DNA from: an uncultured Pelagibacteraceae bacterium
GTDB taxonomy: Bacteria; Pseudomonadota; Alphaproteobacteria; Pelagibacterales; Pelagibacteraceae
Direction: 5' to 3'
DNA: 64,000 nt
Assembly: GCA_902580445.1 (NCBI GenBank)
Contig: CACHKQ010000002.1
Location: 38,784 to 102,783 of the forward strand
The notes beneath the pieces are model-generated. The model was not told the origin of the DNA, did no database searches, and saw only the letters and a program-made list of their open reading frames with translations. The translations under genes and the position numbers were made by a program. Of this stretch, positions 2,548-64,000 are shown piece by piece (positions within the stretch are counted from its first letter, which is position 1; each line of letters starts with the position of its first letter).

Positions 2548-3456
2548 ATGAAAATCTATAAAAATTTTAAAATAGAAAAAAAATTTCAAAATTCTGCAAT
2601 TGCTATCGGAAATTTTGATGGTTTTCATTTGGGTCACCAGAAGGTAATCAATCAAGGTAAACTTATTGCAAAAAAATATAATTTAAACTTTGGCCTTTTA
2701 GTGTTTCACCCTTTACCAATAATGTTTTTTAATAAAAAATTAAAAAATTATAGAATCGACTCATTAAATCAAAAGATTTTATCATCAAAAAAATATGGAT
2801 TAGATTTTTTAATTATTAAAAAGTTCAACAAAAAATTTTCAAATATTTCGTCTGAAAATTTTATTAGAGAAATTGTTTATAAAAAACTCAAGGTAAAATT
2901 AATTTTTATAAGTAAAAATTTTAGGTTTGGAAAAAATAGAGCTGGTGACATTAAATTATTGAAAAAAAGAGAGATTTTTTTTAAATATAAAACACAAACA
3001 ATAACACCCTTAAATAAAAAAAACTTAACAGTTTCATCGACATTAATTCGGAATAAAATTAAAAACGGTAAAATAGAATATGCCAACAAGCTTCTAGGAA
3101 GATCTTGGACAATAGAAGGCAAGGTTCAAAGAGGCGACAGAAGAGGAAGAACTATTGGTTTTCCAACGTGTAATATTGATATAAAGAATTATATAGTTCC
3201 TAAACTTGGAGTATATTCAGCAAAAATTCTTATAGGTAATAAAACCAAAAAAAAAGGTATTGTAAATGTTGGATATAGACCAACATTTGGAAAGAAGAAA
3301 TTAATTCTTGAGGCTCATATTTTTAGCTTTAATAAAAATTTATATGATAAAAGAATTAAAATAATGCTAATTAAATTTATACGAGGTGAAAAAAGATTTA
3401 AAAGTATATTAGAATTAAAAAAACAGATCAAAAAAGATATAAAAAATGCAAAGTAA
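2548..3456 (+). CDS. ribF: Bifunctional riboflavin kinase / FMN adenylyltransferase
   Basis: RibF converts riboflavin to FMN and then FAD. The N-terminal adenylyltransferase domain carries GNFDGFHLGHQ near residue 22. The C-terminal flavokinase domain starts near residue 185 with GKVQRGDRRGRTIGFPTCN. The length of 302 residues is normal. The gene starts immediately after the HAD stop codon and is followed five bases later by ileS. The order ribF-ileS(-lspA) is very widely conserved in Proteobacteria, which matters for judging the ileS break downstream. Confidence 0.96.
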   Translation: MKIYKNFKIEKKFQNSAIAIGNFDGFHLGHQKVINQGKLIAKKYNLNFGLLVFHPLPIMFFNKKLKNYRIDSLNQKILSSKKYGLDFLIIKKFNKKFSNISSENFIREIVYKKLKVKLIFISKNFRFGKNRAGDIKLLKKREIFFKYKTQTITPLNKKNLTVSSTLIRNKIKNGKIEYANKLLGRSWTIEGKVQRGDRRGRTIGFPTCNIDIKNYIVPKLGVYSAKILIGNKTKKKGIVNVGYRPTFGKKKLILEAHIFSFNKNLYDKRIKIMLIKFIRGEKRFKSILELKKQIKKDIKNAK

Positions 3457-3461
3457 ATAAC

Positions 3462-5438
3462 ATGGCTGAAAATAATTTAAATCTTCCCAAAACATCATTC
3501 TCTATGAAGGCAAATCTGCCTTCCAAGGAACCAAAAATATTAGAAACTTGGGACAAAATTAAACTTTACGAGAGATTAAGAAAAAAGTCAGAAGGTAAAA
3601 CCAAGTTCGTTCTTCACGATGGCCCCCCTTATGCTAACGGGCACATACATATGGGAACAGCACTTAATAAAATTTTGAAAGACATTATTATAAAATTTCA
3701 TCAAATGGATGATAAGGATTCAATATATGTTCCAGGATGGGATTGTCATGGCTTACCGATAGAATGGAAAATTGAGGAACAATATAAAAAAAGAAAAAAG
3801 AATAAAGATGAAATACCTATAAAAGATTTTAGGAAAGAGTGTAGAGAATTTGCAGAGAAGTGGATTGTAATACATAAAAAAGAATTTAAAAGATTAGGTG
3901 TAATAGGTGATTGGGAAAATTATTATTCCACAATGAGTTATGATGCAGAGGCACAAATTGTAAGAGAACTAGGGAAATTTCTTAAAGAAGGAAGTCTTTA
4001 TAGAGGCTTTAAGCCAGTATTATGGTCAACAGTTGAAAAGACAGCTTTAGCAGATGCAGAAGTAGAATATAGAGATCATAAATCAAATACTATTTACGCA
4101 AGTTTTAATGTAAAAAAATCTGATAAAGATTATTTAAAGAATACATCTATTATTATTTGGACTACAACGCCATGGACAATACCAGCAAATAAAGCATTAG
4201 CTTATAATAAAGATATTGATTATGTAGTTTTAGATATTGGTAAAAATAAAATTGTTGTTGCTGAAAAATTGATTAATTCAGTTATCGAAAGTTGTGATTT
4301 AGGAAAACATAAAGTTTTGAAAACTTTTAAAGGAAGCGAGTTCAAAAATACTTTATGTTCTCATCCATTTAAAAATTTAGGTTATGAGCATGATGTACCA
4401 ATGTTAGACGCTAATTTTGTTACTTTAGACCAGGGTACAGGAATAGTTCATTGTGCCCCTAGCCATGGACCTGATGATTTTAATTTGTGTTTAAAACATG
4501 GAATGAAAGCAATCGAAACAGTCAATAATGATGGTCTTTATACAAAAAATATACCAATCTTCGAGGGAACCCATGTATTTAAAGCAGATGAAATTATTAT
4601 TAAAAATTTAAAAGAGCAAAATAATCTTTTGGGGAACGGCAGTTTGTTACATAGCTATCCTCATTCATGGAGGTCAAAAGCACCATTAGTTCATAGAGCT
4701 ACTCCACAGTGGTTTATATCAATGGAAAGTCATAAACTAAGAAAAAAAGCAATTGAATCAATTGATAAAACAATATTTTTCCCTGAAAAAGGTAAAGCCA
4801 GAATCAGATCAATGATCGAAACAAGGCCTGACTGGTGTATTTCAAGGCAACGTTCTTGGGGAGTTCCTTTACCAATTTTTATTGATAAAAAAACTAATGA
4901 ACCTTTAAGAGATCCTGAGGTAATAGAAAATATTGCAAAGATTTATGAGAAAGAGGGATCAGACTGTTGGTTTCATGATGATCCACAAAGGTTTCTTGGA
5001 AAAAAATATAATAAAGAAAATTATATAAAATCAAATGACATAGTTGAGGTTTGGTTTGATAGTGGATCAACACATTCATTTGTCTTGGAAAAAAGAAAAG
5101 ATTTAAAATGGCCAGCATCAATGTATTTAGAAGGCTCTGACCAACACAGAGGTTGGTTTCACTCCTCTCTTTTAGAGTCTTGCGGAACTAGGGGTAGAGC
5201 TCCTTTTGATAGTATACTTTCACATGGCTTTGTAGTGGATGGCAAAGGGATGAAAATGTCAAAATCCGCAGGCAATATTATTTCACCTGACGATATTTTG
5301 AAAAAATATGGTGCTGATATACTTAGGCTTTGGGTTGCTTCTTCAGACTATGCGGAGGATTTAAGAATAGATCATACAATATTAGAACAACATGCTGAGT
5401 CTTATAGGAAAATAAGAAATACTAATAGACGGAGGTAA
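3462..5438 (+). pseudogene. ileS: Isoleucyl-tRNA synthetase, truncated at a rearrangement junction
   Basis: This is a class I aminoacyl-tRNA synthetase for Ile-tRNA. The N-terminal catalytic part is intact, with the HIGH-type motif PPYANGHIHMG near residue 55, the CP1 editing domain (WTTTPWTIPANKAL) and KMSKSAGN near residue 605. Homology ends at [10 protein letters not shown] near residue 653. Four unrelated residues and a stop follow. The family is about 900-950 residues long, so the anticodon-binding C-terminal region is missing. Sequence from about 5416 onward is uvrC in another frame, so this is a junction and not a simple frameshift. As read here the enzyme could not function, although the gene is essential. 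An artefact or an unresolved inversion is likely. Confidence 0.9.
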
Positions 5439-5850
5439 AGGTCAGTATTCCGTAAGTAGAGAAACCCTTAATGACCTTGGTCTTCACGAATTACCTATTA
5501 TTGCAATTGCAAAAGGCAAAAACAGAAATGCGGGGGAAGAAACTTTTTTTCATCAAAATAAAGTTATTAAATTTAAAAAAAATGACCCTACTCTATTCTT
5601 TTTACAAAGGCTCAGAGATGAAGCCCACAGATTTGCTATAAGTACTCACAGAGCGAAAAGAAGAAAAAATCTCAGTAAATCATTACTTGATCAAATCTCC
5701 GGAATAGGTAGAAGTAGAAAAAGGGCTTTACTTCATCATTTTGGTTCTGCAAAATCAGTGGAGTCTGCAAGTTTTGAAGATTTAAAATCGGTAGAGGGCA
5801 TTGAAGAAAAAGTTGCAAAAAAAATTCATGATTTTTTTCATGAAGACTAA
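5416..5850 (+). pseudogene. uvrC: UvrC excinuclease subunit, 3' fragment only
   Basis: The frame is open from 5416 to the TAA at 5848-5850 and encodes about 144 residues that begin [14 protein letters not shown]. UvrC makes both incisions in nucleotide excision repair. The fragment keeps the end of the C-terminal RNase H-like nuclease domain (IDGGKGQ and [10 protein letters not shown], with catalytic Asp and His) and the C-terminal helix-hairpin-helix region ([20 protein letters not shown], then [12 protein letters not shown]). The GIY-YIG nuclease, the UvrB-binding region and any start codon are absent. The family is about 600 residues long. It lies directly before pgsA, the usual order in many Proteobacteria, so this side of the junction keeps native context. 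It was missed by the ORF track because it has no start. Confidence 0.9.
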
Positions 5851-5856
5851 TTGATT

Positions 5857-6426
5857 ATGAAAATACCAAACATTTTAACTATTGGAAGGATAATTATTGT
5901 TCCAATATTTGTTTTATCATTTTTTATACCTGGTGTAGTTGGTGACCTGGTACCTTTTTTTCTTTTTGTTTTAGCAAGTTTTACCGATTATTTAGACGGT
6001 CTCTTAGCAAGGTTATATAAAGAAGAGTCTAAGTTGGGAGAGCTTTTGGACCCAATCGCTGACAAAATTTTGGTTGCAGCAGCTTTGGTGCTATTAATTA
6101 TGAATGGCATAATTAAAAATTATGAGGTGATAGCTGCTATTGTTATTTTAACAAGAGAAATTATCATATCTGGACTAAGAGAATTTTTAGCTAAAGAAAA
6201 TGATACTTCGCTTCCAGTTTCAGGTCTTTCTAAATTTAAAACTTTTATACAAATGTTTAGTATCGCACTTCTGCTTACAGGCGATACAGGAAATAAAATT
6301 ATTAATTTTCAGGACTATAATGCACAAACGATTGGAATCGTGCTTCTTTGGGTGTCTGCTTTTTTAACAATCTATACTGGATATCATTATTTAAAAAAGG
6401 GAATTAATAAAGTTATAAGTGATTAA
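5857..6426 (+). CDS. pgsA: CDP-diacylglycerol-glycerol-3-phosphate 3-phosphatidyltransferase
   Basis: PgsA is a membrane enzyme that makes phosphatidylglycerophosphate, the committed step to phosphatidylglycerol. The CDP-alcohol phosphotransferase signature is clear: DYLDGLLAR followed by GELLDPIADK. Several hydrophobic helices fit a polytopic protein of about 189 residues. The ORF track starts at a TTG at 5851. The ATG two codons later (MKIPNILTIGRI) is the better start. The gene sits six bases after the uvrC fragment and converges on the next gene with a 4-base overlap. Confidence 0.95.
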   Translation: MKIPNILTIGRIIIVPIFVLSFFIPGVVGDLVPFFLFVLASFTDYLDGLLARLYKEESKLGELLDPIADKILVAAALVLLIMNGIIKNYEVIAAIVILTREIIISGLREFLAKENDTSLPVSGLSKFKTFIQMFSIALLLTGDTGNKIINFQDYNAQTIGIVLLWVSAFLTIYTGYHYLKKGINKVISD

Positions 6427-9927: not shown

Positions 9928-10591
9928 ATATCATATATTAGTCGTTGATGACGATGACAAAATTAAAGAATTAATTAAACAGTTTTTAGTTGAAAAAGGT
10001 TTAATTGTTTCAACAGCTTCTAATGCAACTGAGGCAAAGGAAAAGATTGAGTTTTTTAATTTTAATTTAATAGTTCTTGACGTAATGATGCCAGGACAGA
10101 GTGGTTATGAATTGACTAAAGAATTAAAGTCTTCAAAAAATATACCTATAATACTTTTAACTGCAAAAGGAGAGGCTGAAAATAGAATACACGGTTTGGA
10201 AATTGGAGCAGATGATTATTTAGGAAAACCATTTGAACCAAAAGAACTTCTTTTGAGAATTAAAAATATTATTAAATCCAATTCAATGGAAAATTTATTA
10301 GACGAGAATAAAATTGGTGAAGCTGAATTGAATTTAAATAAAATGACAATTAGGTTAAATCAAAAAGTTAAAAAAATTAATTTAGCTGAAAAAAATATAT
10401 TACTGAAAATGCTATCTTCGCCTGGTAAAATATTTTCTAGGACAGAAATTGGGAAGATATCAAAGATATCACAGGAAAGATCTATAGACGTTATGATAAC
10501 TAGATTAAGAAAAAAAATTGAACTTGATCCAAAAAATCCTAAATTTTTACAAACAATAAGAGGTTCTGGGTATGTCCTTTGGATTAAATAA
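9914..10591 (+). CDS. OmpR-family response regulator (PetR-like)
   Basis: This is a 225-residue two-component output protein. The receiver domain shows the acidic pair VVDDDDK near residue 12, the phospho-acceptor in LIVLDVMMPGQSGYE near residue 60, and Lys in DYLGKPFEP near residue 108. The C-terminal winged helix ends with RTIRGSGYVL, typical of OmpR/PhoB proteins. It overlaps the histidine kinase by 20 bases, so the two are an obvious cognate pair. By position after the MarR gene it resembles PetR. Confidence 0.93.
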   Translation: MEKNKYHILVVDDDDKIKELIKQFLVEKGLIVSTASNATEAKEKIEFFNFNLIVLDVMMPGQSGYELTKELKSSKNIPIILLTAKGEAENRIHGLEIGADDYLGKPFEPKELLLRIKNIIKSNSMENLLDENKIGEAELNLNKMTIRLNQKVKKINLAEKNILLKMLSSPGKIFSRTEIGKISKISQERSIDVMITRLRKKIELDPKNPKFLQTIRGSGYVLWIK

Positions 10592-11891
10592 CTTATTAAA
10601 AAAAATTTTACCTAAAAGATTATTTTATAGAGCATTAATTATTGTTGCTGCTCCAATTATAATTTTACAATTAACAATTTCGATAGTTTTTTTTGATAGT
10701 ATTTGGATTAAAGCAAATAAGGGTATGACCAAATCTCTTGTGGGTGAAGTCAAAACATTATTTGACTCTTTAAATTCGGCAGATACTGATACAGTTATAT
10801 TTTTAACAAATTTATATAAAAAAAATTTTGATTTTGTAATTAATATAAAAAAATCAGAAAGCTTGCCAACTACAAAATCAGACAGACGTTTCAGTCCAAT
10901 GGATAGATCACTTAGAAGAGAGTTAAAACCCATATTTGGAAATAATTATTGGTTTGATACTGTAACTTTTATAGATCTTGTTGATCTTAGAATTGGAACT
11001 AATGATCAAATAATTCAAATCTTTTTTCCAAAAAGCAAAATTGCTCCATCATCTGTAAGGGTCTTTGTGTTATGGATAACTCTGCCTTCATTAATTTTAA
11101 TTCTTATTGCAATTCTCTTTTTGAGAAATCAAACTCGACCGATAGTAAAGTTGTCAAAAGCTGCAGAGAGATTTGGAAGAGGTGAAAAGGTTGATGATCT
11201 GAGACCATCAGGTGCATCTGAAATTAGAAAAGCCACAATAGAATTTGATAAAATGATGAAAAGGATTAACAAACATTTAAATCAACGATCTGAGATGCTG
11301 TCAGGTATAAGCCATGACTTAAGAACTCCTTTAACTAGACTAAAATTACAATTAGCTATGACTGATAAAAAAGACAATTCAAAGAAAATGGCTTCTGACA
11401 TCGATGAAATGGAAAAAATGCTTAATGATTATCTTCAATATGCAAAGTCACAATCTGAGGAAGATTATGTTGAAATACATATAAATGAATTAGTTTTAGA
11501 TATATTAAGAAATTTCGACAGTTCTAAATATGAATGTAAAATTATTGAAAAAGTTAAAATATATGGAAGAAAAAATTTATTAAGAAGGAGTTTATCAAAC
11601 ATAGTGGAAAATGGTCTTTCCTACGGGGATAAAATTTATGTCGAGATAAAAAAATCTGTTGGAAACGCAATTGTGACAATTCAGGATAATGGTCCAGGTC
11701 TCCCAAAAAAAGAATACGAAAATGTTTTTAAACCTTTTTACAGAGTAGATAAAAGTAGAAGTTTAAATAGATCTGGTGTTGGTCTGGGACTTTCTATATC
11801 CCAGGATATAGTAAAGTCACATGGAGGTAACATTTCGTTATCTGAAAGTAAGTTTAAGGGTTTAGCAGTTAAGGTCTCTTTACCGTTTTAG
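10572..11891 (+). CDS. EnvZ-like sensor histidine kinase
   Basis: This is a 439-residue inner-membrane kinase. It has a transmembrane helix near residues 19-40, a periplasmic loop of about 120 residues, a second helix near residues 160-182, a HAMP region (RPIVKLSKAAERFGRGE), the H-box SGISHDLRTPLTRLKLQL near residue 247, an N-box (RRSLSNIVENGLSYG), and G-boxes DNGPGLP and GVGLGLSI. It presumably phosphorylates the adjoining OmpR-type regulator. The signal is unknown. Its 3' end overlaps the convergent ubiK gene by 12 bases. Confidence 0.92.
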   Translation: MSFGLNNLLKKILPKRLFYRALIIVAAPIIILQLTISIVFFDSIWIKANKGMTKSLVGEVKTLFDSLNSADTDTVIFLTNLYKKNFDFVINIKKSESLPTTKSDRRFSPMDRSLRRELKPIFGNNYWFDTVTFIDLVDLRIGTNDQIIQIFFPKSKIAPSSVRVFVLWITLPSLILILIAILFLRNQTRPIVKLSKAAERFGRGEKVDDLRPSGASEIRKATIEFDKMMKRINKHLNQRSEMLSGISHDLRTPLTRLKLQLAMTDKKDNSKKMASDIDEMEKMLNDYLQYAKSQSEEDYVEIHINELVLDILRNFDSSKYECKIIEKVKIYGRKNLLRRSLSNIVENGLSYGDKIYVEIKKSVGNAIVTIQDNGPGLPKKEYENVFKPFYRVDKSRSLNRSGVGLGLSISQDIVKSHGGNISLSESKFKGLAVKVSLPF

Positions 11892-12116
11892 TTTTTTTTG
11901 TTTTTTTTTTAATTCATTAATTTCTTTTTGTTGTTTTTCAATAATTTTTTTTAAGATTATAAATTCATTTTTTGTAACCAAATCTAGTTTACTCACAAAG
12001 TCTTCTTTTTTAAATTTTAAAGATGTTGCAATCTCTTTTCTTAAATCTTTAGAAGTAATAAGACCTGCTTCAATAAAACCTGATATCATTTTGAGAATTT
12101 TTTGAGAATTATTCAT
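11880..12116 (-). CDS. ubiK: UbiK / BMFP-domain accessory factor
   Basis: This is a 78-residue protein of the YqiC/UbiK (BMFP) family. An amphipathic N-terminal helix is followed by a Lys/Glu-rich C-terminal coiled coil (KKIIEKQQKEINELKKKQKK). In enterobacteria UbiK is an accessory factor of aerobic ubiquinone synthesis. Assignment rests on length, helix plus coiled-coil layout and the MISGFIEAGLITSKDLRKEI segment. It is convergent with, and overlaps, the kinase gene. Confidence 0.65.
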   Translation of the reverse strand: MNNSQKILKMISGFIEAGLITSKDLRKEIATSLKFKKEDFVSKLDLVTKNEFIILKKIIEKQQKEINELKKKQKKLKR

Positions 12117-12169
12117 AATTTTACTTTAAATTATAAGTAATTTAATTTCAATTGTGATAAATTTAACAA

Positions 12170-12961
12170 ATGGTTAATAATTTGAATCCGGTTCTGATCG
12201 ATTTAGGAGTTATCAAAATTCATTGGTATTCTCTGGCATATATATTTGGCATATTAATTGGCTGGTGGTATGGGAGATTTTTAATTAAAAAAAAAGTTAG
12301 ATTTATCGATCAAGAAAATTATATAAAAAATTTTGATGATTTAATTTCTTACATAATTATTGGCGTAATTATTGGTGGAAGATTGGGATATGTAATATTT
12401 TATAATCCTTTATATTTTATTAAAAACCCTATTGAAATTTTTAAATTATGGGAAGGTGGAATGTCTTTTCACGGAGGATTAATAGGTGTTATTGTAAGCA
12501 CCTATATTTTTTCAAAACTCAAAAAACTTAATTACAAAATATATTTTGATCTAATTTGCTGTGTGGCGCCTATTGGAATTTTTTTGGGGAGAGTTGCAAA
12601 TTTTATAAACAGTGAACTTTATGGGACACCCACAGAAAAACCTTGGGGAGTTATTTTTCCGAAAATTGATAATTTAACTAGACACCCCTCACAACTCTAT
12701 GAGGCATTTTTAGAGGGAATTATTTTATTCATATTAATAAATTTTTTATTCTTAAAAAAGAAATTAAATTACGGGATAATATCTTTCATATTTTTAATTT
12801 CATACAGTTTTTTTAGAATTTTAGTTGAACAATTTAGAGAGCCTGACAAACATATTGGATATATTTTTAATTTTATGAGTCTTGGTTCTTTACTAAGTAT
12901 TGCTATGATAATTTTTGCTTTTATATTTGTTTCAAAAATTAACTCAAATGAAAAAAATTAA
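12170..12961 (+). CDS. lgt: Prolipoprotein diacylglyceryl transferase
   Basis: Lgt attaches diacylglycerol from phosphatidylglycerol to the lipobox Cys of prolipoproteins. It is a 263-residue polytopic membrane protein. Signatures are HGGLIG near residue 102, the Lgt motif GRVANFINSELYG near residue 140 and RHPSQLYEAFLEG near residue 172. lspA, the next enzyme in the pathway, is partly present at the far end of the window. The gene overlaps the following methyltransferase by 14 bases. Confidence 0.97.
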   Translation: MVNNLNPVLIDLGVIKIHWYSLAYIFGILIGWWYGRFLIKKKVRFIDQENYIKNFDDLISYIIIGVIIGGRLGYVIFYNPLYFIKNPIEIFKLWEGGMSFHGGLIGVIVSTYIFSKLKKLNYKIYFDLICCVAPIGIFLGRVANFINSELYGTPTEKPWGVIFPKIDNLTRHPSQLYEAFLEGIILFILINFLFLKKKLNYGIISFIFLISYSFFRILVEQFREPDKHIGYIFNFMSLGSLLSIAMIIFAFIFVSKINSNEKN

Positions 12962-14012
12962 TAAATTATTTTTAAAAAAAAAATCAATGCCATTGGATTC
13001 TTTTTTGGATAAAGTTCTTTACGACAGAGATTTTGGTTATTATCAAAAGAAAAATCCTTTTGGAGAAAAAGGAGATTTTATAACTGCTCCAAATATTTCT
13101 AATCTTTTTGGAGAAATGATAACTATTTGGTTAGTGAGTTTTTGGGAAAAATTGAGAAAACCAAAAAAAATTAATTTCATTGAAATGGGTCCAGGTAACG
13201 GAGATCTTTGTTTATCGATTTTACAAACATTAAAAAATTTTCCTCAAGTTTATAAATCTGTAAATATAATTCTTTATGAAAGAAGTGAAACATTAAAAAA
13301 AATACAGAAAAAAAGAATTAACACACAAAAAGTAAAATGGATTAAAAATTTAAAGCTAATTAAAGATGGGCCTGTTATATTTTTTGGAAATGAATTTTTA
13401 GATGCTCTACCTATAAAACAGTTTAAGAAAGTAAACGGAAAATTATTTGAAAAATACGTGGAAATTAATAAAAAAAATAATGTAAATTTTTTTTTTAGGA
13501 AATCTATCAAAAAACCAATAGCAAAACTAAAAAATTTTGAAGCTATAAAAAACAATATTATAATAGAATATCCAGAACATGGATTTAAGGAATTAAATGA
13601 GGTATGCAAAAAGATCAGACAATTAAATGGTGGTGCTCTTTTTATTGATTATGGATATATAAAAGAGCACAATTTTGATACGCTTCAATCAGTTAAAAAA
13701 CACAAATTTAACGATATTCTGCAAAACGTTAGTGAGGCTGATATTACTTCTTTAGTAAATTTTAATTTATACAAGGAATATTTTAATATGAAAAATTTAT
13801 GTGTAGATAAAATCATTTCTCAAAGTGAATTTCTTCAAAAACTGGGGATTATGGAAAGGTATAAAATATTATGTAATAAGTTAGATAATAATGAAAAATC
13901 AAATTTATATGGCAGAATAAGAAGGCTTATTCATCCTAAAATGATGGGAGAAAATTTCAAAGTTATTTTTGCAAAAAATAAAAAATGTAGTTTCACTATA
14001 GACCTAAACTAA
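12948..14012 (+). CDS. MidA/NDUFAF7-like SAM-dependent methyltransferase (DUF185)
   Basis: This is a class I methyltransferase of about 354 residues. The N-terminal DRDFGYYQKKNPFGEKGDFITAPN and the SAM-binding EMGPGNGDL are diagnostic of the MidA/NDUFAF7 family. The mitochondrial member methylates an arginine in complex I subunit NDUFS2; the bacterial substrate is less clear. The ORF track starts at 12915, but the ATG at 12948 (MKKINKLFLKKKS) fits better. The downstream gene starts inside its stop codon (TAATG). Confidence 0.85.
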   Translation: MKKINKLFLKKKSMPLDSFLDKVLYDRDFGYYQKKNPFGEKGDFITAPNISNLFGEMITIWLVSFWEKLRKPKKINFIEMGPGNGDLCLSILQTLKNFPQVYKSVNIILYERSETLKKIQKKRINTQKVKWIKNLKLIKDGPVIFFGNEFLDALPIKQFKKVNGKLFEKYVEINKKNNVNFFFRKSIKKPIAKLKNFEAIKNNIIIEYPEHGFKELNEVCKKIRQLNGGALFIDYGYIKEHNFDTLQSVKKHKFNDILQNVSEADITSLVNFNLYKEYFNMKNLCVDKIISQSEFLQKLGIMERYKILCNKLDNNEKSNLYGRIRRLIHPKMMGENFKVIFAKNKKCSFTIDLN

Positions 14013-14776
14013 TGTTTTATTCAAAAAATTTAATGAGTGAAGTTAATGTAAAACATTGCTTCTTCTCAAGAAAAAATGGCGTCTCCAAAGGAATATATGA
14101 AAGTTTAAATTGTGGTATTGGAAGTAAAGATGACATTAATAATGTTAAAAAAAATTTGGAGATAGTTTCTAAAAATTTCAATATCCAAAGTAGTAAATTG
14201 GCACTAATGAATCAGACTCATAGTAATAAAGTTATATTTATTAAGGATTTAAATAATTTAAAAAGATTTGATTGTGACGCCTTATTGACAAGTAATGACG
14301 ACATTGCTCTTTGCGTATTAACTGCAGATTGTGCGCCAATATTAATTTACGAAACCAAAAAAAAAATAGTGGGATGCATACATGCTGGTTGGAAGGGAGC
14401 ATTTTTTGGTATTATTGAAAATACGATATTAAAATTGTCAGAAATAGGTGGAGATAAAAATAAATTAGCTGTAACTGTAGGGCCTTGTATATCTCAAAAT
14501 AATTATGAAGTTAAAAAAGGTTTTTATTCAAATTTTATGTCTCAGTCTAAACAAAACGAAAAATTCTTTGAAGAAATGGGAAATGAGAAATTTAGATTCA
14601 ATTTACGAGCATATATAAATAAAAAATTTCAAGATTTAGGTGTTCAAACGATTGATAATATTGCAGTGGATAGTTTTGCCTCTGAGAACGAATATTTTAG
14701 CCATAGAAGGGCCAAAAAGTTAGGTCAAGATGACTACGGAAGATGTATATCAGCAATTAGAAAAATTACTTTATAA
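14012..14776 (+). CDS. pgeF: Purine nucleoside phosphorylase-like YfiH/PgeF protein
   Basis: This is a 254-residue protein of the multicopper-polyphenol-oxidoreductase-like YfiH family. The family is now linked to purine nucleoside metabolism and to editing of peptidoglycan precursors. Visible motifs are NQTHSNKV near residue 68, the zinc-ligand segment LTADCAPIL near residue 106, and HAGWKGAFFG near residue 127. The C-terminal part ends with SHRRAKKLGQDDYGRCISAI. The start overlaps the previous stop by one base, so it is co-translated with the methyltransferase. Confidence 0.9.
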   Translation: MFYSKNLMSEVNVKHCFFSRKNGVSKGIYESLNCGIGSKDDINNVKKNLEIVSKNFNIQSSKLALMNQTHSNKVIFIKDLNNLKRFDCDALLTSNDDIALCVLTADCAPILIYETKKKIVGCIHAGWKGAFFGIIENTILKLSEIGGDKNKLAVTVGPCISQNNYEVKKGFYSNFMSQSKQNEKFFEEMGNEKFRFNLRAYINKKFQDLGVQTIDNIAVDSFASENEYFSHRRAKKLGQDDYGRCISAIRKITL

Positions 14777-14782
14777 AATTAA

Positions 14783-14811
14783 TTGAAAATTTGACTCATT
14801 GGATGTATAGA
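14783..14811 (+). promoter_or_regulatory. Putative sigma-70 promoter of prs
   Basis: TTGAAA, a 17-base spacer and TATAGA lie in the 46-base gap before prs. Spacing is ideal. The transcript would start only about five to eight bases before the ATG, giving a very short leader. Confidence 0.4.
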
Positions 14812-14822
14812 TAGTTTTCCTA

Positions 14823-15755
14823 ATGAAAATTTTATCAGGAACAAGCAACCCTTCATTAAGCAAAAGTATCAGTAAACAGCTTAAGCTTAAATTAATTAAC
14901 ACAAATATCAAAAATTTTTCAGATGGAGAAATATATGTTGAGATTAATGAAAATATAAGGGGAAATAGTGTATTTGTAGTTCAATCTACATCTACCCCAG
15001 CAAATGATAATTTGATGGAATTACTCTTATGTATAGATGCCTTAAAAAGATCGTCGGCCAAAAGCGTTACAGCAGTAATTCCATATTTTGGTTACGCAAG
15101 GCAAGATAGAAAAGTTGTACCTAGAACTTCAATTTCTGCAAAGGTAGTATCAAACTTAATTACAAAAGCAGGTGCTAATAGAATTGTGACAGTAGATTTA
15201 CATGCTGGTCAGATTCAAGGTTTTTTTGACATGCCAGTAGATAATTTATTTACAACTCCTTTATTTGCAAGATATATAAAAAAAAATATTAAAAGCAAAA
15301 ATTTAATATGTGTGTCTCCTGATGCAGGTGGAATTGAAAGAACAAGAGGTTTGGCGAAAAAAATAAATGCTGACTTGGCGATTATAGATAAAAGGAGACC
15401 GCAAGCTGGAAAGTCTCAAGTTATGAATGTTATTGGTGAAATAAAAAATAAAAATTGTATAATTGTGGATGATATTATTGATAGTGGGGGGACAATAGTA
15501 AATGCTGTTGAAGCCTTAATTAAAAAAGGAGCTAAGGATGTCCATGTTTTCGTAACGCATGCTGTTCTTAGCGGAGATGCAGTAAATAAAATTAAAAAGT
15601 CTAAAATAAAAAAATTAATTATTACTGATACTATAGATAATAGTAGAAGAATAAAAAATGTTGGTAAAATACAAGTATTATCAATTGCACCTCTTATGGC
15701 AGAAGCAATAAAAAGGATTTCAAACTCTACATCTGTGTCAGATCTCTTTAATTAA
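14823..15755 (+). CDS. prs: Ribose-phosphate pyrophosphokinase
   Basis: Prs makes PRPP from ribose-5-phosphate and ATP for nucleotide, His and Trp synthesis. At 310 residues it is full length. It opens with ILSGTSNPSLSKSISKQL. Motifs include DGEIYVEINENIRG, YFGYARQDRK near residue 95, VDLHAGQIQGFFD near residue 128 and the PRPP-binding loop IVDDIIDSGGTIV near residue 217. It sits upstream of rplY, pth and ychF on the same strand. Confidence 0.98.
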   Translation: MKILSGTSNPSLSKSISKQLKLKLINTNIKNFSDGEIYVEINENIRGNSVFVVQSTSTPANDNLMELLLCIDALKRSSAKSVTAVIPYFGYARQDRKVVPRTSISAKVVSNLITKAGANRIVTVDLHAGQIQGFFDMPVDNLFTTPLFARYIKKNIKSKNLICVSPDAGGIERTRGLAKKINADLAIIDKRRPQAGKSQVMNVIGEIKNKNCIIVDDIIDSGGTIVNAVEALIKKGAKDVHVFVTHAVLSGDAVNKIKKSKIKKLIITDTIDNSRRIKNVGKIQVLSIAPLMAEAIKRISNSTSVSDLFN

Positions 15756-15798
15756 ACCCTTGTTTTATTCTAAAGTTGGGGTAAATTGGCTCATTCAA

Positions 15799-16551
15799 AT
15801 GACAAATAATTTAAAGGCCACTAAGAGAGAAACAAAAACTAAAGGCCAAATAAATATTTTAAGATCAAAAGGTTTTATACCAGCTATTTTATATGGCGGT
15901 AAAAGTCCGAATTTAAAATTAAGTATAAGTGAAAAATTTGTTGATGAAGTTTTAAGAACGGAAAATTTTTTGTCTACAGTGATAGATCTTGATATTGATG
16001 GAAAGAAAGAAAAAGTAATTCCTCGAGACGTTAGTTATCATGTTACGTCGGATAAACCTACTCACATTGATTTTATGCGAATTGTTCAAGGTTCAAATAT
16101 CATTTTAGAAATCCCAGTTAGATTTAAAAACAATGATCAGTGTAGCGGTCTTAAAAAAGGCGGCGTTTTAAATATTGTAAGAAGAAAAATTGAACTAAAA
16201 TGTCAGGCAGAAAGTATACCTGAAAATATTGATGTAGATTTAGCTGGTTTAGATATTGGTACAAGTATAAGAATATCTTCTGTTACACTTCCTCAAAATG
16301 CAGAATTAACAATTACAGATAGAGATTTTGTGGTGGCCACAATAGCTGCACCGACAATTGTAAAAGAACCTGAAAAACCAGCTGAAGAAACTGCTGCTGA
16401 AGGGGAAGGTGGTCAAGAGACTTCTGCTGAGGGTGCAGATACAACAACGGCAGGTAAAGAAGGTGAAGCTTCTAAGAAAGACGATAAAGGCAAAGACCCT
16501 GCACCAGATAAAAAACAGTCTGGTGAGAAAAAAACTCCTGATAAAAAATAA
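15799..16551 (+). CDS. rplY: 50S ribosomal protein L25/Ctc with long charged tail
   Basis: This is the 5S-rRNA-binding ribosomal protein of the TL5/Ctc type. An N-terminal L25 domain (RSKGFIPAILYGGK) is followed by a beta-domain (SDKPTHIDFMRI). The last 65 or so residues are a low-complexity tail rich in Glu, Lys, Ala, Thr and Pro (EETAAEGEGGQETSAEG, then KKDDKGKDPAPDKK). The ORF track begins at a TTG at 15760; the conserved start is the ATG at 15799 (MTNNLKATKRETK). rplY-pth-ychF is a common bacterial order. Confidence 0.93.
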   Translation: MTNNLKATKRETKTKGQINILRSKGFIPAILYGGKSPNLKLSISEKFVDEVLRTENFLSTVIDLDIDGKKEKVIPRDVSYHVTSDKPTHIDFMRIVQGSNIILEIPVRFKNNDQCSGLKKGGVLNIVRRKIELKCQAESIPENIDVDLAGLDIGTSIRISSVTLPQNAELTITDRDFVVATIAAPTIVKEPEKPAEETAAEGEGGQETSAEGADTTTAGKEGEASKKDDKGKDPAPDKKQSGEKKTPDKK

Positions 16552-16557
16552 ATATTT

Positions 16558-17130
16558 ATGCTTTTGCTTGTAGGTTTAGGAAACCCCGGTCCGAATAATA
16601 CAAACAATAGACATAATATTGGTTTTAAAATTATAGATGCAATAAACTCTGAATTTAGTCTGTCAAAACAAAAACCTAAATTTAAAGGGCTTTTAACAAC
16701 TGGAAATATTCAAGATAAAAAAGTTTATGCGATTAAACCATTAACTTTTATGAACAATTCTGGAGTTTGTATCAAAGAACTTATTGATTATTTTAAAATT
16801 GATGCAAAAAATGTAATAGTTTTTCATGACGATTTAGATATAGACCTAGGAAAAGTAAAAGCTAAATTTGGTGGAACTAGTGCGGGTCATAATGGTATTG
16901 AATCTATTGATAAATTTATTGGTAAAGATTATTCAAGAGTAAGAATTGGAATTGGTCGACCTGAACAAAAAAGTAAAGTTAACAATCATGTCTTAGAAGA
17001 TTTTAATGAAAATGAAGAAGATAGAATTAAAGATATTACTAAAAATATTGTTAAATTAATTCCGGCTTTAATTAACAAAGAAATGGATTTATTTTCAAGT
17101 AAGGTAAACCAGAATTTGAATGGGATTTAA
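16558..17130 (+). CDS. pth: Peptidyl-tRNA hydrolase
   Basis: Pth recycles peptidyl-tRNAs released from stalled ribosomes. It has 190 residues. Signatures are LLVGLGNPGPNNTNNRHNIGF at the N-terminus, with the catalytic His in that segment, KPLTFMNNSG near residue 60, and FHDDLDIDLGKVKAKFGGTSAGHNGI near residue 84. It is six bases after rplY and overlaps ychF by 11 bases. Confidence 0.97.
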   Translation: MLLLVGLGNPGPNNTNNRHNIGFKIIDAINSEFSLSKQKPKFKGLLTTGNIQDKKVYAIKPLTFMNNSGVCIKELIDYFKIDAKNVIVFHDDLDIDLGKVKAKFGGTSAGHNGIESIDKFIGKDYSRVRIGIGRPEQKSKVNNHVLEDFNENEEDRIKDITKNIVKLIPALINKEMDLFSSKVNQNLNGI

Positions 17131-18193
17131 GTGTGGTATCGTTGGATTGCCTAATGTTGGTAAATCTACATTGTTTAATGCTTTAACTTCATCAAAAAAC
17201 GCACAAGCAGAAAACTTTCCATTTTGTACTATCGATCCAAACATAGGTATAGTAGATGTTCCAGATACTCGTTTAAACAATCTATCAGTAATTTCAAAAT
17301 CTAGTAAAAAAATTAATGCAAATATAACATTTGTTGATATCGCTGGACTTGTTAAAGGCGCATCAAAAGGTGAAGGTTTAGGAAATAAATTTCTTTCACA
17401 TATTAGGGAGGTAGATGCAATAGTTCACCTAGTAAGATGCTTTGACTCGGAAAATATACAGCATGTAAATAAAAGGATTGATCCTATAAATGATTTGGAG
17501 ACGATAAAAACTGAAATATTGCTTGCTGATATTAAGCAAATAGAGAAGAAACTCGAAAAAAATGCAAAAAAAAAATTAACTGAAAAACAAATTAAATTGC
17601 TAAATGAAATTTTAGCTCGACTCAATGAAGCTAAATCTTTTGATATAAGTTATGATTCGGAAAGTAAAAAATTTCTTACAGAAATCGGGCTTATATCAAA
17701 CAAACCATATATTATCGTATGTAATGTCGATGAGCAGAGTGTGAGGGATGGAAATAATTATACAAAGCTTTTAAAAGAAAAGTATTCAAATCAAAAATTT
17801 GTTTCTATTTGTGCTGATATAGAGAGCCAAATAATAGACCTTAAGCCTGATGAAAGAGAAAATTACATGAAAAATATAGGTTTGGAAAAAACTGGTTTAG
17901 ATAAACTGATTACATCTGGATACGATTTGCTCAATTTAAATACTTTTTTTACCTCTGGTCCTAAAGAAACAAGAGCTTGGACTATTAAAAAAAATACTGC
18001 AGCTCAAAAAGCAGCAGGAGTAATACATAGTGACTTTGAAAAAAATTTTATAAGGGCAGAAGTAGTATCTTATGATGACTTTAAGAAATATGGAAGCTTT
18101 GAAAAAGCAAAAGAAAATGGAAAATTAAGAGTAGAAGGTAAAAATTATTTTGTTAATGATGGTGATGTTTTAATTTTCAGGGTCAATCCTTGA
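17120..18193 (+). CDS. ychF: Ribosome-binding ATPase YchF
   Basis: This is an Obg-family P-loop protein of 357 residues that prefers ATP. It has the Walker A motif GLPNVGKSTLFNAL near residue 8, the switch DIAGLVKGASKGEGLG, NVDE in place of the NKxD guanine motif, and a C-terminal TGS domain ending [13 protein letters not shown]. It overlaps pth at its start. Its last 24 bases overlap the convergent petC gene. Confidence 0.96.
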   Translation: MGFKCGIVGLPNVGKSTLFNALTSSKNAQAENFPFCTIDPNIGIVDVPDTRLNNLSVISKSSKKINANITFVDIAGLVKGASKGEGLGNKFLSHIREVDAIVHLVRCFDSENIQHVNKRIDPINDLETIKTEILLADIKQIEKKLEKNAKKKLTEKQIKLLNEILARLNEAKSFDISYDSESKKFLTEIGLISNKPYIIVCNVDEQSVRDGNNYTKLLKEKYSNQKFVSICADIESQIIDLKPDERENYMKNIGLEKTGLDKLITSGYDLLNLNTFFTSGPKETRAWTIKKNTAAQKAAGVIHSDFEKNFIRAEVVSYDDFKKYGSFEKAKENGKLRVEGKNYFVNDGDVLIFRVNP

Positions 18194-18961
18194 CCATAGT
18201 CTACGCATACTAAAATATACCAAGGTAGATAAAATTATTAGAAAAATCACAACTTTAAATCCTAATTTATGTCGTGTTTCCAAATGAGGTTCGGCTGACC
18301 AGGTAAGGAAAGTTGTAACATCTTTTGCCATTTGAGACTGAGTTGCTTTTGTTCCATCGGCATAAGAAACTAGATCGTCTGCAAGTGGATTTGACATTTT
18401 AATCTTGTTACCGTCCATGTATTTGTTGTAGTAGACCCCGTCCTCTAATTGAAAATCAGCAGGTGGTTCTGTATAGCCCATTAAAACTGCATAAATATAG
18501 TCAGCGCCGCCCTTACGTGCTTTTACTAAAACCGACATATCTGGTGGATAAGCTCCGCCATTAGCTGCGGTCGCAGCCTCAATATTTGGATAGGGCGATA
18601 CAAATTTGTCAGAAGGTCTTCCTGGTCTTGTGAACATTTCTCCATCACTATTTGGACCATCGGTTACTTCAAAATTAGCTGCTATTGCTTTTACTTGCTC
18701 AACAGAAAATTCTGGTCCGCCTTTTTCACCAAGGTTTCTATAACTTAAAAGGTTCATAGAATGACATGATGCGCAAACCTCGGTATAAACTTGATATCCT
18801 CTTTGTAAAGCGCTTCTATCAAATGTTCCCGTTATTCCTTTAAAGCTCCAATCATATTTTGGAATTTTCATCTCTTCGGCGTATGAAAAATTTGTAATAA
18901 TAAAAAAGAATAATAGAAAGCTTAGAGAAGATCTTTTAAATTTACACATCTCTTTTGTCAC
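18170..18961 (-). CDS. petC: Cytochrome c1 of the bc1 complex
   Basis: This is the haem c subunit of ubiquinol:cytochrome c oxidoreductase. A signal peptide ([19 protein letters not shown]) is followed by the haem-binding [14 protein letters not shown] near residue 63. A likely Met ligand region precedes the C-terminal membrane anchor ([20 protein letters not shown]). At 263 residues it is complete. Its start overlaps petB by 20 bases. Its 3' end overlaps ychF by 24 bases. Confidence 0.97.
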
Positions 18962-20201
18962 TTTTGATAAACTCTGCTTTAGGCATTCCTGTTAAAACTG
19001 GCTCTGTTATACTTAGAGGGAGTGGTTGAGTTTTTTCAATTCTACTAAGTAATGGCAATACTACTAAAAAATGAGCAAAATAATAAATAGTGCCAACTCT
19101 AGCCACGAAAAGATATAAGCCCTCAGCTGGCATAGCGCCTACATAACCAAGCGCTAAAACATCAACTACAAGAACCCAGAAAAATATTTTGTTTAGAGGC
19201 CTAAAAACAGACGATCTTACTTTGCTACTATCAAGCCACGGTAATACCATCAAAATAAAAATTGATCCAAACATTAAAATAACTCCACCAAGCTTATCTG
19301 GTACTGAACGCAAAATAGCATAAAAAGGTAATAGGTACCATTCGGGTACGATATGTTTAGGTGTGACTAATGGATTGGCCTGGATGTAGTTATCGCTATG
19401 ACCAAGAACATTGGGTGCAAAAAATATGAAACCTGAAAAAATTATTAGAAAAATTAATAAAGCAAATAAATCTTTAATTGTTATATATGGATGAAAAGGA
19501 ACAGTGTCTTTTGATGGTTTTTTAACATCAATTCCTATCGGGTTATTATTCCCGGGCACATGTAAAGCCCAGATATGCAAAATAACTAAACCTAGAATTA
19601 AAAAAGGGAATAAATAATGTAAACTAAAAAATCTTGTTAAAGTTGGGTTATCAACTGAGTAACCCCCCCACAACCACGTAGTAATACTTTCTCCAACTAA
19701 AGGTATAGCACTAAACAAATTTGTAATTACTGTTGCTCCCCAAAAACTCATTTGGCCCCATGGTAATACGTAGCCCATGAAAGCTGTAGCCATCATAAGT
19801 AGATATATTATCATTCCAAGTATCCAAATAACTTCTCTTGGTGATTTGTATGACCCGTAAAACAATGATCTGAATATATGGATATAAACTGCTAAAAAAA
19901 ACATTGAAGCGCCATTACTGTGTATGTAACGGATTAACCATCCGTAGTTTACGTCTCTCATGATATGCTCCACACTATTAAATGCTAAATCTGCGTGGGC
20001 CACATAATGCATTGCTAATACGAGTCCGGTTATAATTTGTGACAATAAACAAAAAGTTAATATACCGCCAAATGTCCACCAATAGTTCAAGTTCTTTGGC
20101 GTTGGGTAATCTGTTAGATGAGAAGCTAAAGACAAAAGTGGCAGTCTATCGTTAAACCACTTTCCGAATTTTGATTTAGGAGTATATGTGTGATCACTCA
20201 T
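18942..20201 (-). CDS. petB: Cytochrome b of the bc1 complex
   Basis: This is the 419-residue polytopic subunit that carries haems bL and bH and both quinone sites. Haem-ligand His pairs are in [16 protein letters not shown] / [20 protein letters not shown] and [20 protein letters not shown]. The quinol-oxidation-site motif [16 protein letters not shown] is present. About eight transmembrane helices can be seen. It is the middle gene of petA-petB-petC. Confidence 0.98.
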
Positions 20202-20207
20202 TTAAAA

Positions 20208-20723
20208 TTATCCAATCCTAATTGTATTTTCATCAACAAAAGCATACTTTGGAATTTCCATATTTGTTGGGGCCGGACCTTTTCTAATCCTGCCTGATGT
20301 ATCGTAATGAGATCCATGACAAGGACAAAACCATCCATTGTATTCCCCTTTATCAGAAAGAGGTACGCACCCAAGATGAGAACAAATTCCCATCATAACT
20401 AACCACTCTGCTTTTTTAACTCTATCTTCATCTTTTTCAGGATGTTTTAGATCATCTAAACTTACTGATTGTGCTTCGGAAATTTCTGAGTCTGTTCTCC
20501 TCTTTATAAAGACTGGCTTCCCTCTCCACAAAACCGTAATTGATTTTCCTGGTTCAATTTGGCTTATATCTACCTCTGTTGTCGCCAATGCTTTAACTGA
20601 ACTATCTGGATTCATCTGATCGATAAAAGGCCAAATAGTTGCACCCAAACCAACTGCACCGACCGTGTAACTAGCGGTAAAAAGAAAATCTCTCCTGTTA
20701 TTTTTTTTTTCTGAGTCGCTCAT
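20208..20723 (-). CDS. petA: Rieske iron-sulfur protein of the bc1 complex
   Basis: PetA is the [2Fe-2S] subunit that passes electrons from quinol to cytochrome c1. Cluster motifs CSHLGC and CPCHGSHYD lie near residues 115 and 135. The N-terminus has a twin-arginine-like segment (NNRRDFLFTASYTVGAVG), so Tat export with an uncleaved anchor is expected. The ORF track starts 25 codons too early at 20798; the ATG at 20723 (MSDSEKKNNRR) is the family start. It is the first gene of petABC. Confidence 0.96.
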   Translation of the reverse strand: MSDSEKKNNRRDFLFTASYTVGAVGLGATIWPFIDQMNPDSSVKALATTEVDISQIEPGKSITVLWRGKPVFIKRRTDSEISEAQSVSLDDLKHPEKDEDRVKKAEWLVMMGICSHLGCVPLSDKGEYNGWFCPCHGSHYDTSGRIRKGPAPTNMEIPKYAFVDENTIRIG

Positions 20724-20789
20724 AAAGTTAAAATAATATTGCTTTTTATTATAAAATAGGGTTATTTTAAAGGGTTGCCAGAGGCCAGA

Positions 20790-20818
20790 ATGACACACAA
20801 ATTGAATTAAGTTGTCAA
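20790..20818 (-). promoter_or_regulatory. Putative promoter of petABC
   Basis: On the minus strand TTGACA, 17 bases, then TGTCAT lie about 65 bases upstream of the petA ATG. The -35 is perfect; the -10 matches 4 of 6. The 130-base spacer with hemF, one of the longest in the window, must also hold the divergent hemF promoter. Confidence 0.4.
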
Positions 20819-20853
20819 AATTGACTAGTTATAAACACCGAAAATAATTTTTT

Positions 20854-21705
20854 ATGGAAATAAGTCAGGAAATAGAAAAAAAACTAGTAAGTCAATGGTT
20901 TGCCTTTTTACAACGTAAAATATTAGAAGAATTTCAAAATCTTGAACTAGAATTTTCTAAAAAAAAAAGATTAAAAGTAAAATATTTTAGAAAAAATATT
21001 TGGAGAAAAGATAACCCCCAAGATGGCGGAGGACAATATTATATTTTAAAAAATGGTCAAATTTTTGATCAAGTTGGAATTAATCATTCTACGGTCCAGG
21101 GTAAATTTCAGAAGAATTATAAATCTAATATTCCTGGAACTAAAAAAAATCAATCCTATTGGGCGTCAGGTATATCGGTTGTAGCACATATGAAAAATCC
21201 CAATATCCCAGCAATTCATTTTAACACAAGATTTGTTATTACATCTAAAAGATGGTTCGGCGGAGGTATGGATGTTACGCCAAGCAATAAAGATTTTAAT
21301 GAGAAGAAATTTGTTCACAAAAATCTTAAATTCGTGTGTGATAACAATAAAAAAAATTATAAAAATTACAAAAAATGGTGTGATGATTATTTTTACATAA
21401 AACATCTGGGGGAAACTAGGGGAATTGGGGGAATTTTTTTTGATTACCTTTACAAAGATTGGGTAAAAAATTTTAAATTTATAAGAGATGTAGGAATTTG
21501 TTTTGTCGAGATAACTAAAACAATTGTGGAAAAGAAAAAATTCTTAAGATGGACTAAAAAACAAAAAGGTGATCAACTAATTAAAAGAGGTAAGTATGTG
21601 GAATTTAATTTACTTTATGACAGAGGAACTAAATTTGGATTAAATACTGGTGGTAATATTGATGCAATATTTATGTCATTACCACCTAATGCGAGATGGA
21701 AATAA
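20854..21705 (+). CDS. hemF: Oxygen-dependent coproporphyrinogen III oxidase
   Basis: HemF performs the aerobic oxidative decarboxylation of coproporphyrinogen III in haem synthesis. It has 283 residues. Conserved stretches are AHMKNPNIPAIHFNTRF near residue 110, WFGGGMDVTPS near residue 130, and the C-terminal KRGKYVEFNLLYDRGTKFGL. It is divergent from petABC, whose b and c1 subunits need haem. Its stop overlaps the greA start (TAATG). Confidence 0.97.
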   Translation: MEISQEIEKKLVSQWFAFLQRKILEEFQNLELEFSKKKRLKVKYFRKNIWRKDNPQDGGGQYYILKNGQIFDQVGINHSTVQGKFQKNYKSNIPGTKKNQSYWASGISVVAHMKNPNIPAIHFNTRFVITSKRWFGGGMDVTPSNKDFNEKKFVHKNLKFVCDNNKKNYKNYKKWCDDYFYIKHLGETRGIGGIFFDYLYKDWVKNFKFIRDVGICFVEITKTIVEKKKFLRWTKKQKGDQLIKRGKYVEFNLLYDRGTKFGLNTGGNIDAIFMSLPPNARWK

Positions 21706-42941: not shown

Positions 42942-43370
42942 ATGAGATATAAAATTTATACAGATGGTGCATGTTCGGGAAACCCAGGTCCTGGCGGTTG
43001 GGCAGCCATAATATTAGTGGATGATAAAATTAAAAATGAAATCTCAGGAAGAGAAAATAGTACAACAAATAATAAAATGGAGCTTTTAGCGCCAATTAAA
43101 GCAATTCAAAAATTAAAAAAGAAATCAGAAATTTCAATTTATACAGACTCGACATATGTGCGAGATGGGATAACAACGTGGATTAAAAAATGGGAAAAAA
43201 ATGGTTGGAAAACTGCATCTAAAAAACCTGTAAAAAATAAAGACCTATGGAAAAAATTAAAAGATTTATCATCAAAACATTCTATCAAGTGGATTTGGGT
43301 TAAAGGGCATGCTCACAATAAATATAATAATATTGTTGATGAACTAGCACAAGGAGCTATAAGAAGATAA
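42942..43370 (+). CDS. rnhA: Ribonuclease HI
   Basis: RNase HI cleaves RNA in RNA-DNA hybrids. It has 142 residues. The catalytic Asp is in YTDGACSGNPGPGGW, Glu in NNKMELLAPI, Asp in IYTDSTYVRDGI and the His region in WVKGHAHNKYNN. It lies between thrB and the rhodanese gene with gaps of 0-1 bases. Confidence 0.98.
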   Translation: MRYKIYTDGACSGNPGPGGWAAIILVDDKIKNEISGRENSTTNNKMELLAPIKAIQKLKKKSEISIYTDSTYVRDGITTWIKKWEKNGWKTASKKPVKNKDLWKKLKDLSSKHSIKWIWVKGHAHNKYNNIVDELAQGAIRR

Positions 43371-43751
43371 ATGATTAAACAAATACCAAGTAACAAAATT
43401 CAAGACTTTGTAAAAGAAAACCCAAAAAGTGTTTTGTTAGACGTAAGAACAAAAGAAGAATGGGATCAAATTGGAAAACCAGATGGCGATAAAATTGGGA
43501 TTAAAACATATTTTTTATCTTCGCAATTTAAAGGAAGAATTATTAATGAAAATTTTACAAAAGAATTCGAAAACTTAAATATTGATAAAAATTGTGAAGT
43601 TCTTGTAATGTGTGGGTCAGGTAATAGATCTCAGAGAGCAGCAGAATTATTAACTGAAAAAGGTTTTAAATGCTCGAATGTTTCTGATGGGTTTAGAGGA
43701 GACGGCGAAGAAAAAATTGGCTGGAAAAATAACCAGCTTCCGACTAAATAA
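43371..43751 (+). CDS. Single-domain rhodanese-like protein
   Basis: This is a 126-residue rhodanese fold. DVRTKEEWDQIG near residue 23 is typical. The active-site loop is VMCGSGNRSQRAAELL, with the catalytic Cys near residue 83. Sulfur transfer from thiosulfate or persulfides is the likely role; the physiological acceptor is unknown. It is the last gene of the plus-strand run, with its stop directly against the convergent peroxiredoxin stop. Confidence 0.88.
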   Translation: MIKQIPSNKIQDFVKENPKSVLLDVRTKEEWDQIGKPDGDKIGIKTYFLSSQFKGRIINENFTKEFENLNIDKNCEVLVMCGSGNRSQRAAELLTEKGFKCSNVSDGFRGDGEEKIGWKNNQLPTK

Positions 43752-44240
43752 TTAAATTTTACTTAAAAAATTTTCTGCTGCAGATAATTCACACATTGCG
43801 GTTTCTTTTTCTTCTTCAAATTTTTTAACAATTTCGTTTTCAACCAGCATTGTGTATCTGTTTGATCTTATACCTAGACCTTTCTCTGATTTATCTACTT
43901 CAGCACCAATGGCTTTAGTAAAGTTGAGAAAGGGGTCCCCTATCATAAAAATTTTTTCACCTACACCTTGATTTTCGCCCCATGCTTTCATTACGTTTGG
44001 ATCATTCACAGCAACACATACTATTTTGGATACTCCCTTTTTCTTAGCGGTGTCATAATTTTTTACATATCCTGGCAAATGAATTGCAGAACAAGTTTTT
44101 GTGAATGCTCCTGGCACACCCAGAAGTACAATTTTTTGATTTTTAAAAATATCGCTTGTACCAATTTTTTTTACTTCATTTTTTTGGTTTAAATAAAAAA
44201 ATTCAGAAACTGGTAGTTTATCTCCAACCTTAATTTTCAT
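43752..44240 (-). CDS. Peroxiredoxin, Prx5 subfamily
   Basis: This is a thiol peroxidase of 162 residues that reduces H2O2 and alkyl hydroperoxides. The peroxidatic Cys is in VPGAFTKTCSAIHLPGYV near residue 50, the Prx5 pattern. NDPNVMKAWG and GLGIRSNRYTMLVE are further family markers. Its start overlaps the thrC stop by four bases, placing it at the tail of the cox-thrC minus-strand run. Confidence 0.93.
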   Translation of the reverse strand: MKIKVGDKLPVSEFFYLNQKNEVKKIGTSDIFKNQKIVLLGVPGAFTKTCSAIHLPGYVKNYDTAKKKGVSKIVCVAVNDPNVMKAWGENQGVGEKIFMIGDPFLNFTKAIGAEVDKSEKGLGIRSNRYTMLVENEIVKKFEEEKETAMCELSAAENFLSKI

Positions 44241-63531: not shown

Positions 63532-63837
63532 TTAAGGTTTTTTTCTTAATTCTCTTAAAATCATATTTTCTAAATTTGACGATGCCTCTGAACTTGAATT
63601 TGAATTGTTCGCACTACTTATTGCAGCTTCTAAAGATGAGTTAACATCTTTTGTTTTTTTAGATTTTGGAATTGGTAAATTATCATAGTCTGGTGGTAAT
63701 ATAAGTGGATCCTTCTTCTTTATTAAAAATTCGTCAGTTGTCTTTTTTTTTTGACCAGTTACTGCATCCCTAAAATTGGTACATCCATTTAATCCTATAA
63801 AAATTATAATAATAAAAATTATTTTTAAATATTTCAT
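63532..63837 (-). CDS. DUF3035 lipoprotein
   Basis: This is a 101-residue predicted lipoprotein. The signal peptide ends with the lipobox LNGC (Cys19). TTDEFLIKKKDPLILPPDYDNLP is the DUF3035 core, followed by a Ser/Asn-rich tail. In alphaproteobacteria this family lies directly after lspA, as here: its ATG overlaps the lspA stop (ATGA). Function is unknown. Confidence 0.85.
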   Translation of the reverse strand: MKYLKIIFIIIIFIGLNGCTNFRDAVTGQKKKTTDEFLIKKKDPLILPPDYDNLPIPKSKKTKDVNSSLEAAISSANNSNSSSEASSNLENMILRELRKKP

Positions 63838-64000
63838 GTGTTTTTTTTTAATACAAATTCTTTTATAACCATAGCAAAAATACCAAGAGAAATAAAAATG
63901 TCTGCAAAATTAAAGGTAAACCAATGCATGTTTCCTACATGAAAATCTATAAAATCAGGAACAGCGAAATATGTAAGCCTGTCATAAACATTTCCTACGG
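63834..64000 (-). CDS. lspA: Lipoprotein signal peptidase LspA, 5' part outside window
   Basis: About 54 C-terminal residues are present. LspA is a membrane aspartyl protease that removes the signal peptide after Lgt has acted. Both catalytic Asp regions are visible: GNVYDRL and FNFADIFISLG, with VPDFIDFHVG between. It precedes the DUF3035 gene with an ATGA overlap. ileS normally lies immediately upstream of lspA, so sequence just beyond the window edge on this strand should be informative. It was missed by the ORF track because it lacks a start inside the window. Confidence 0.93.
   Translation of the reverse strand, partial: VGNVYDRLTYFAVPDFIDFHVGNMHWFTFNFADIFISLGIFAMVIKEFVLKKNT

Follow-up and report, generated by a model that had tools for sequence, protein, structure and literature searches.

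Does the gene order in the 64,000-nt stretch of DNA analysed here (the window) record a large inversion in the chromosome of a SAR11-type bacterium, or does it reflect how the sequence was made? A sequence-only reading had placed lspA in inverted orientation 58 kb from ileS and called this the signature of a large inversion. The placement holds, with the 5′ part of ileS on the plus strand and lspA on the minus strand at the end of the window, and in the sequence data the DNA between them is reversed as one block. As a property of the chromosome, however, the inversion is unsupported, since only one junction is present in the data, an essential single-copy gene is cut, the arrangement is unique, the join has the form of a chimera of multiple displacement amplification (MDA) and contigs end near both breakpoints. 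We estimate a probability of about 90% that the join between ileS and uvrC is an MDA chimera retained by the assembler and absent from the organism itself.

The left side of the window matches what had been read from the sequence, with ribF and the 5′ part of ileS at 2.5–5.4 kb on the plus strand. ribF (2548–3456) occupies its usual place upstream of ileS and is collinear with two related genomes, G024 and G016. The ileS part (3462–5423) encodes residues 1–653 of 914, as counted on the intact G024 protein, and keeps the catalytic and editing domains; the Pfam domain Anticodon_1, which spans residues 684–838 of intact IleS, is absent from the truncated protein. IleS homology ends at about position 5423 (residue 653), and the hybrid frame continues to a stop at 5438. 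From about 5418 on, the sequence is that of the 3′ end of uvrC, in a different frame from ileS, and is read to a stop before pgsA (5851). This uvrC part (5424–5850, plus strand, about residues 469–611 of 611) has no start, and its 5′ part is absent from the assembly. It is followed by a gene for a pgsA-like CDP-alcohol phosphatidyltransferase (5851–6426, plus strand), the normal downstream neighbour of uvrC. Isoleucyl-tRNA synthetase is essential. Searches across all 35 contigs of the 82% complete assembly (E ≤ 10) returned no match to the C-terminal 256 residues of IleS, and none in any of these contigs to the first 468 residues of UvrC.

The other end of the window carries, on the minus strand, lspA together with its usual DUF3035 partner, again in agreement with the earlier reading. 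The DUF3035 lipoprotein-like gene lies at 63532–63837 and the 3′ part of lspA at 63834–63998. The latter comprises the last 54 codons, which match Peptidase_A8 (E = 6e-13) at profile positions 94–141 of 142, and is cut by the contig end at 64000: the window covers bases 38,784–102,783 of contig C2, which is 102,783 bp long, and position 64000 is the exact last base of that contig (position 102783 of 102783). The sequence-only reading had predicted the ileS 3′ and uvrC 5′ parts just past this point, where the contig stops. The remainder of lspA was sought across all contigs of the genome and was not found.

BLAST comparisons with G024 and G016 align the contig in one orientation up to position 5423 and in the opposite orientation for 5423–64000. 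The reversed block (5424–64000) corresponds to C1:182188–242442 in G024 and to C1:270039–211370 in G016. G024 is the closest relative, and contig C2 is 92–97% identical to its contig C1 over most of its length. On G024, the breakpoints fall at 243,537 in ileS and 182,188 in uvrC, enclosing a block of about 61 kb, and the last base of the window corresponds to 242,442, leaving 1,095 bp to the point where a second junction would be expected. In a comparison of the whole 35-contig assembly with G024 (984 kb), every contig with a match was collinear except C2, whose flip at window position 5423 was the single within-contig change of orientation; additional flips, which would mark an assembly with many chimeras, were sought in all contigs against G024 and none was seen. 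Local differences from G024 also occur on this contig. Within the collinear block, about 0.4 kb at 43349–43763 replaces about 2.0 kb at G024 C1:220160–222203, a small strain-specific insertion or deletion. To the left of the window, about 11.6 kb of C2 (approximately 10036–21609 of the contig) has 68% or no similarity to G024 and 95% to G016, a similarity pattern that would fit the exchange of a variable island between strains.

Gene order in related genomes shows what the uninterrupted arrangement looks like. The 16 relatives in which ileS and uvrC share a contig (G002, G004, G007, G016, G018, G023, G024, G026, G029, G030, G031, G032, G034, G035 and G036 from the family, and G050 from a sister family) all carry the two genes intact and in convergent orientation, including the single-contig genomes G032 and G034. 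The interval between the two genes within the family is 53–61 kb. Flipping the block between the breakpoints restores ileS and uvrC, as had been predicted, and the resulting geometry matches the order in all 16. Among the close relatives compared, ileS is intact or interrupted solely by a contig end or a frameshift, and the same is true of uvrC. The single ileS frameshifts lie near A-rich runs, at about 3600–3680 on the minus strand of G020:C3 (locus L021) and at about 1495–1541 of G019:C5 (locus L033), and probably reflect small indel errors in the draft assemblies. At 101 of 109 other ileS loci, lspA follows the ileS C-terminus on the same strand; seven of the remaining loci have the C-terminus but no lspA, and in the last one the contig ends within ileS. 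A 39-mer spanning the junction, searched with 3 mismatches allowed among 397 family genomes, is found in this genome only and in none of the 396 others.

The join itself lies at 5418–5423 on the plus strand, at a putative microhomology of AATACT. Around it, ileS reads ..AAGAAATACT/TTC.. and the uvrC of the nearest relatives reads ..TTAATACT/AATAGACGG.. The ileS of relatives continues as ..AAAATAAGAAATACT TTC AGA.., and the window as ..AAAATAAGAAATACT AATAGACGGAGG.. The nearest relatives of the uvrC 3′ part (loci L137, L136, L135, L134, L132 and L138; 91–92%) have ..GA(T/C)TT(A/G)ATACTAATAGA(C/T)GG.. The run common to ileS and uvrC at the join is thus AATACT, reduced to 5 nt in L136, giving 5–6 nt with the uvrC side read from relatives. 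For this base composition, the chance that a random join would share a run of at least 6 nt is about 0.3%, and of at least 5 nt about 1%. A run of 5–6 nt is too short to have confused an assembler, so a DNA molecule carrying the ileS/uvrC join was probably sequenced. Its length suffices for priming synthesis by phi29 polymerase. Beyond this short shared run, there is no inverted repeat or mobile element at the join, and a search within the assembly for duplicated or inverted copies, such as hairpin-type chimeras leave, found none near it.

What kind of DNA was sequenced is suggested by the assembly, a SAR11-type genome of 847,299 bp in 35 contigs, 82% complete and with an estimated contamination of 0.05%. 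Its smallest contig is 2,001 bp. This fits the 2-kb cut-off of a published pipeline that trims 100 bp from each contig end and keeps only contigs of more than 2,000 bp (PMC5519541), and points to a single-amplified genome (SAG); we infer that the assembly stems from the SAG of a SAR11 cell. Under such a cut-off, a separate 1.1-kb ileS 3′ fragment would be discarded, so that the absence of an ileS 3′ piece is no proof that the cell was without it.

The ends of the contigs bear on the same question. A chimeric edge that consumed the 5′ side of ileS would be expected to leave contig ends near the breakpoints. Contig C2 stops 1,095 bp away from the ileS breakpoint; contig C9, which lies beyond uvrC, stops at G024 179,801, a distance of 2,387 bp from the uvrC breakpoint. 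Among covered positions in this region, about 6% and about 14% are as near to a contig end as 1,095 bp and 2,387 bp, respectively. An unmatched tail in contig C15 was considered as a second misjoin and rejected, as it has the expected G024 sequence on both flanks and is a small insertion of predicted genes. That region of this genome (G000:C15 14366–16822, locus L121) contains an insertion of about 1.5 kb and more unmatched sequence, absent at the same place in G024. Its open reading frames, on both strands, are methyltransferase-like in the appearance of their sequence.

The form of the join is that of a known artefact. MDA chimeras, formed by the phi29 polymerase in single-cell genomes, are inverted joins in 85% of cases, are mostly primed at 2–21 nt of complementarity and arise about once in every 22 kb of amplified DNA (Lasken and Stockwell 2007, PMC1855051). 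The ileS/uvrC join resembles them in bringing together segments of the same genome in inverted orientation at a short microhomology (5–6 nt, on the basis of the uvrC of relatives), in presenting a single junction with the sequence beside it missing, and in occurring in one assembly only, with the genes intact in relatives. It differs in that its segments lie about 61 kb apart: inverted chimeras with segments more than 10 kb apart are a minority class, at 69 of 475 chimeras and 69 of 406 inverted joins, and complementarity is less frequent over long distances (34.8%) (PMC1855051). This spacing, not the commonest for MDA inversions, counts against an MDA chimera. Favouring an artefact over biology are an IleS without its anticodon-binding domain and without a second copy, contig ends near both breakpoints, the signs of a SAG, and the lack of any other genome with the join.

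We therefore infer that MDA made the join, and the course of events can be proposed as follows. During amplification, a displaced 3′ end would have halted in ileS (at ..GAAATACT) and annealed, by pairing over about 6 nt (AATACT), to single-stranded DNA from the uvrC region, convergent with ileS and about 61 kb away. Extension of the annealed end would have yielded a chimera of the ileS 5′ part and the uvrC 3′ part. The assembler may then have taken this chimeric edge, traversed the normal block between uvrC and ileS backwards and halted in lspA, about 1.1 kb before ileS sequence that had already been used.

The most serious competitor is a true inversion of about 61 kb in the chromosome that broke both ileS and uvrC, with the reciprocal junction of uvrC 5′ and ileS 3′ parts lying in a 3.5-kb gap between the ends of C2 and C9. 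The orientation of the block is exactly what one inversion predicts, C2 and C9 would meet end to end across that one gap, and a gap at this place is not improbable, with about 21% of the homologous G024 contig uncovered. Such an event should nevertheless be lethal, because it would break the only copy of ileS and take away the anticodon-binding domain; none of the 396 other family genomes has it, the order is kept in 16 relatives, and the join offers 5–6 nt and neither an inverted repeat nor a mobile element. Natural bacterial inversions, which occur between inverted repeats, rRNA operons or insertion elements, likewise reverse the gene order of a block as a unit. Here, by contrast, the breakpoints are without inverted homology, one junction is seen, the break disrupts an essential gene and the arrangement is not found in any relative. 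Of the features of a true inversion, the reversed block is found, whereas intact essential genes and breakpoint repeats or mobile elements are not. We regard a real inversion as very unlikely. The version of it in which the inversion did leave an IleS without its anticodon-binding domain, either in a dying mutant or in a cell whose unsequenced 18% holds another ileS, is a little harder still to credit.

The remaining explanations place the fault elsewhere. An assembler might have misjoined the contig at a repeat common to ileS and uvrC with no chimeric DNA molecule involved, and a draft assembly of 35 contigs is a setting for such errors; but only about 6 nt are common to the two sites, far under any assembler word length, no long repeat lies there, and the join needs a physical read across it, which makes a pure misjoin highly improbable. 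The idea that the right block came from another cell or strain, through contamination or a cross-strain chimera, is scarcely credible. Nothing specific speaks for it beyond an identity to G016 of 85.7% in the block against 95% in the left part, and G016 itself diverges from G024 in the block; both sides of the join are 92–97% identical to G024, contamination is estimated at 0.05%, and the block occurs only once in the assembly.

An MDA chimera thus being the favoured reading, the artefact would be an ordinary one, and the locus is of value as a caution only. It provides a worked example of the signs of an amplification chimera: a one-sided junction, microhomology, a cut essential gene, contig ends close to both breakpoints and uniqueness among close relatives. 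For the organism, the likeliest arrangement of the real chromosome is the ordinary ribF-ileS-lspA-...-pgsA-uvrC, in which neither ileS nor uvrC is broken, and a literal reading of the contig would falsely credit its species with an inversion, an ileS/uvrC fusion and the loss of ileS and uvrC.
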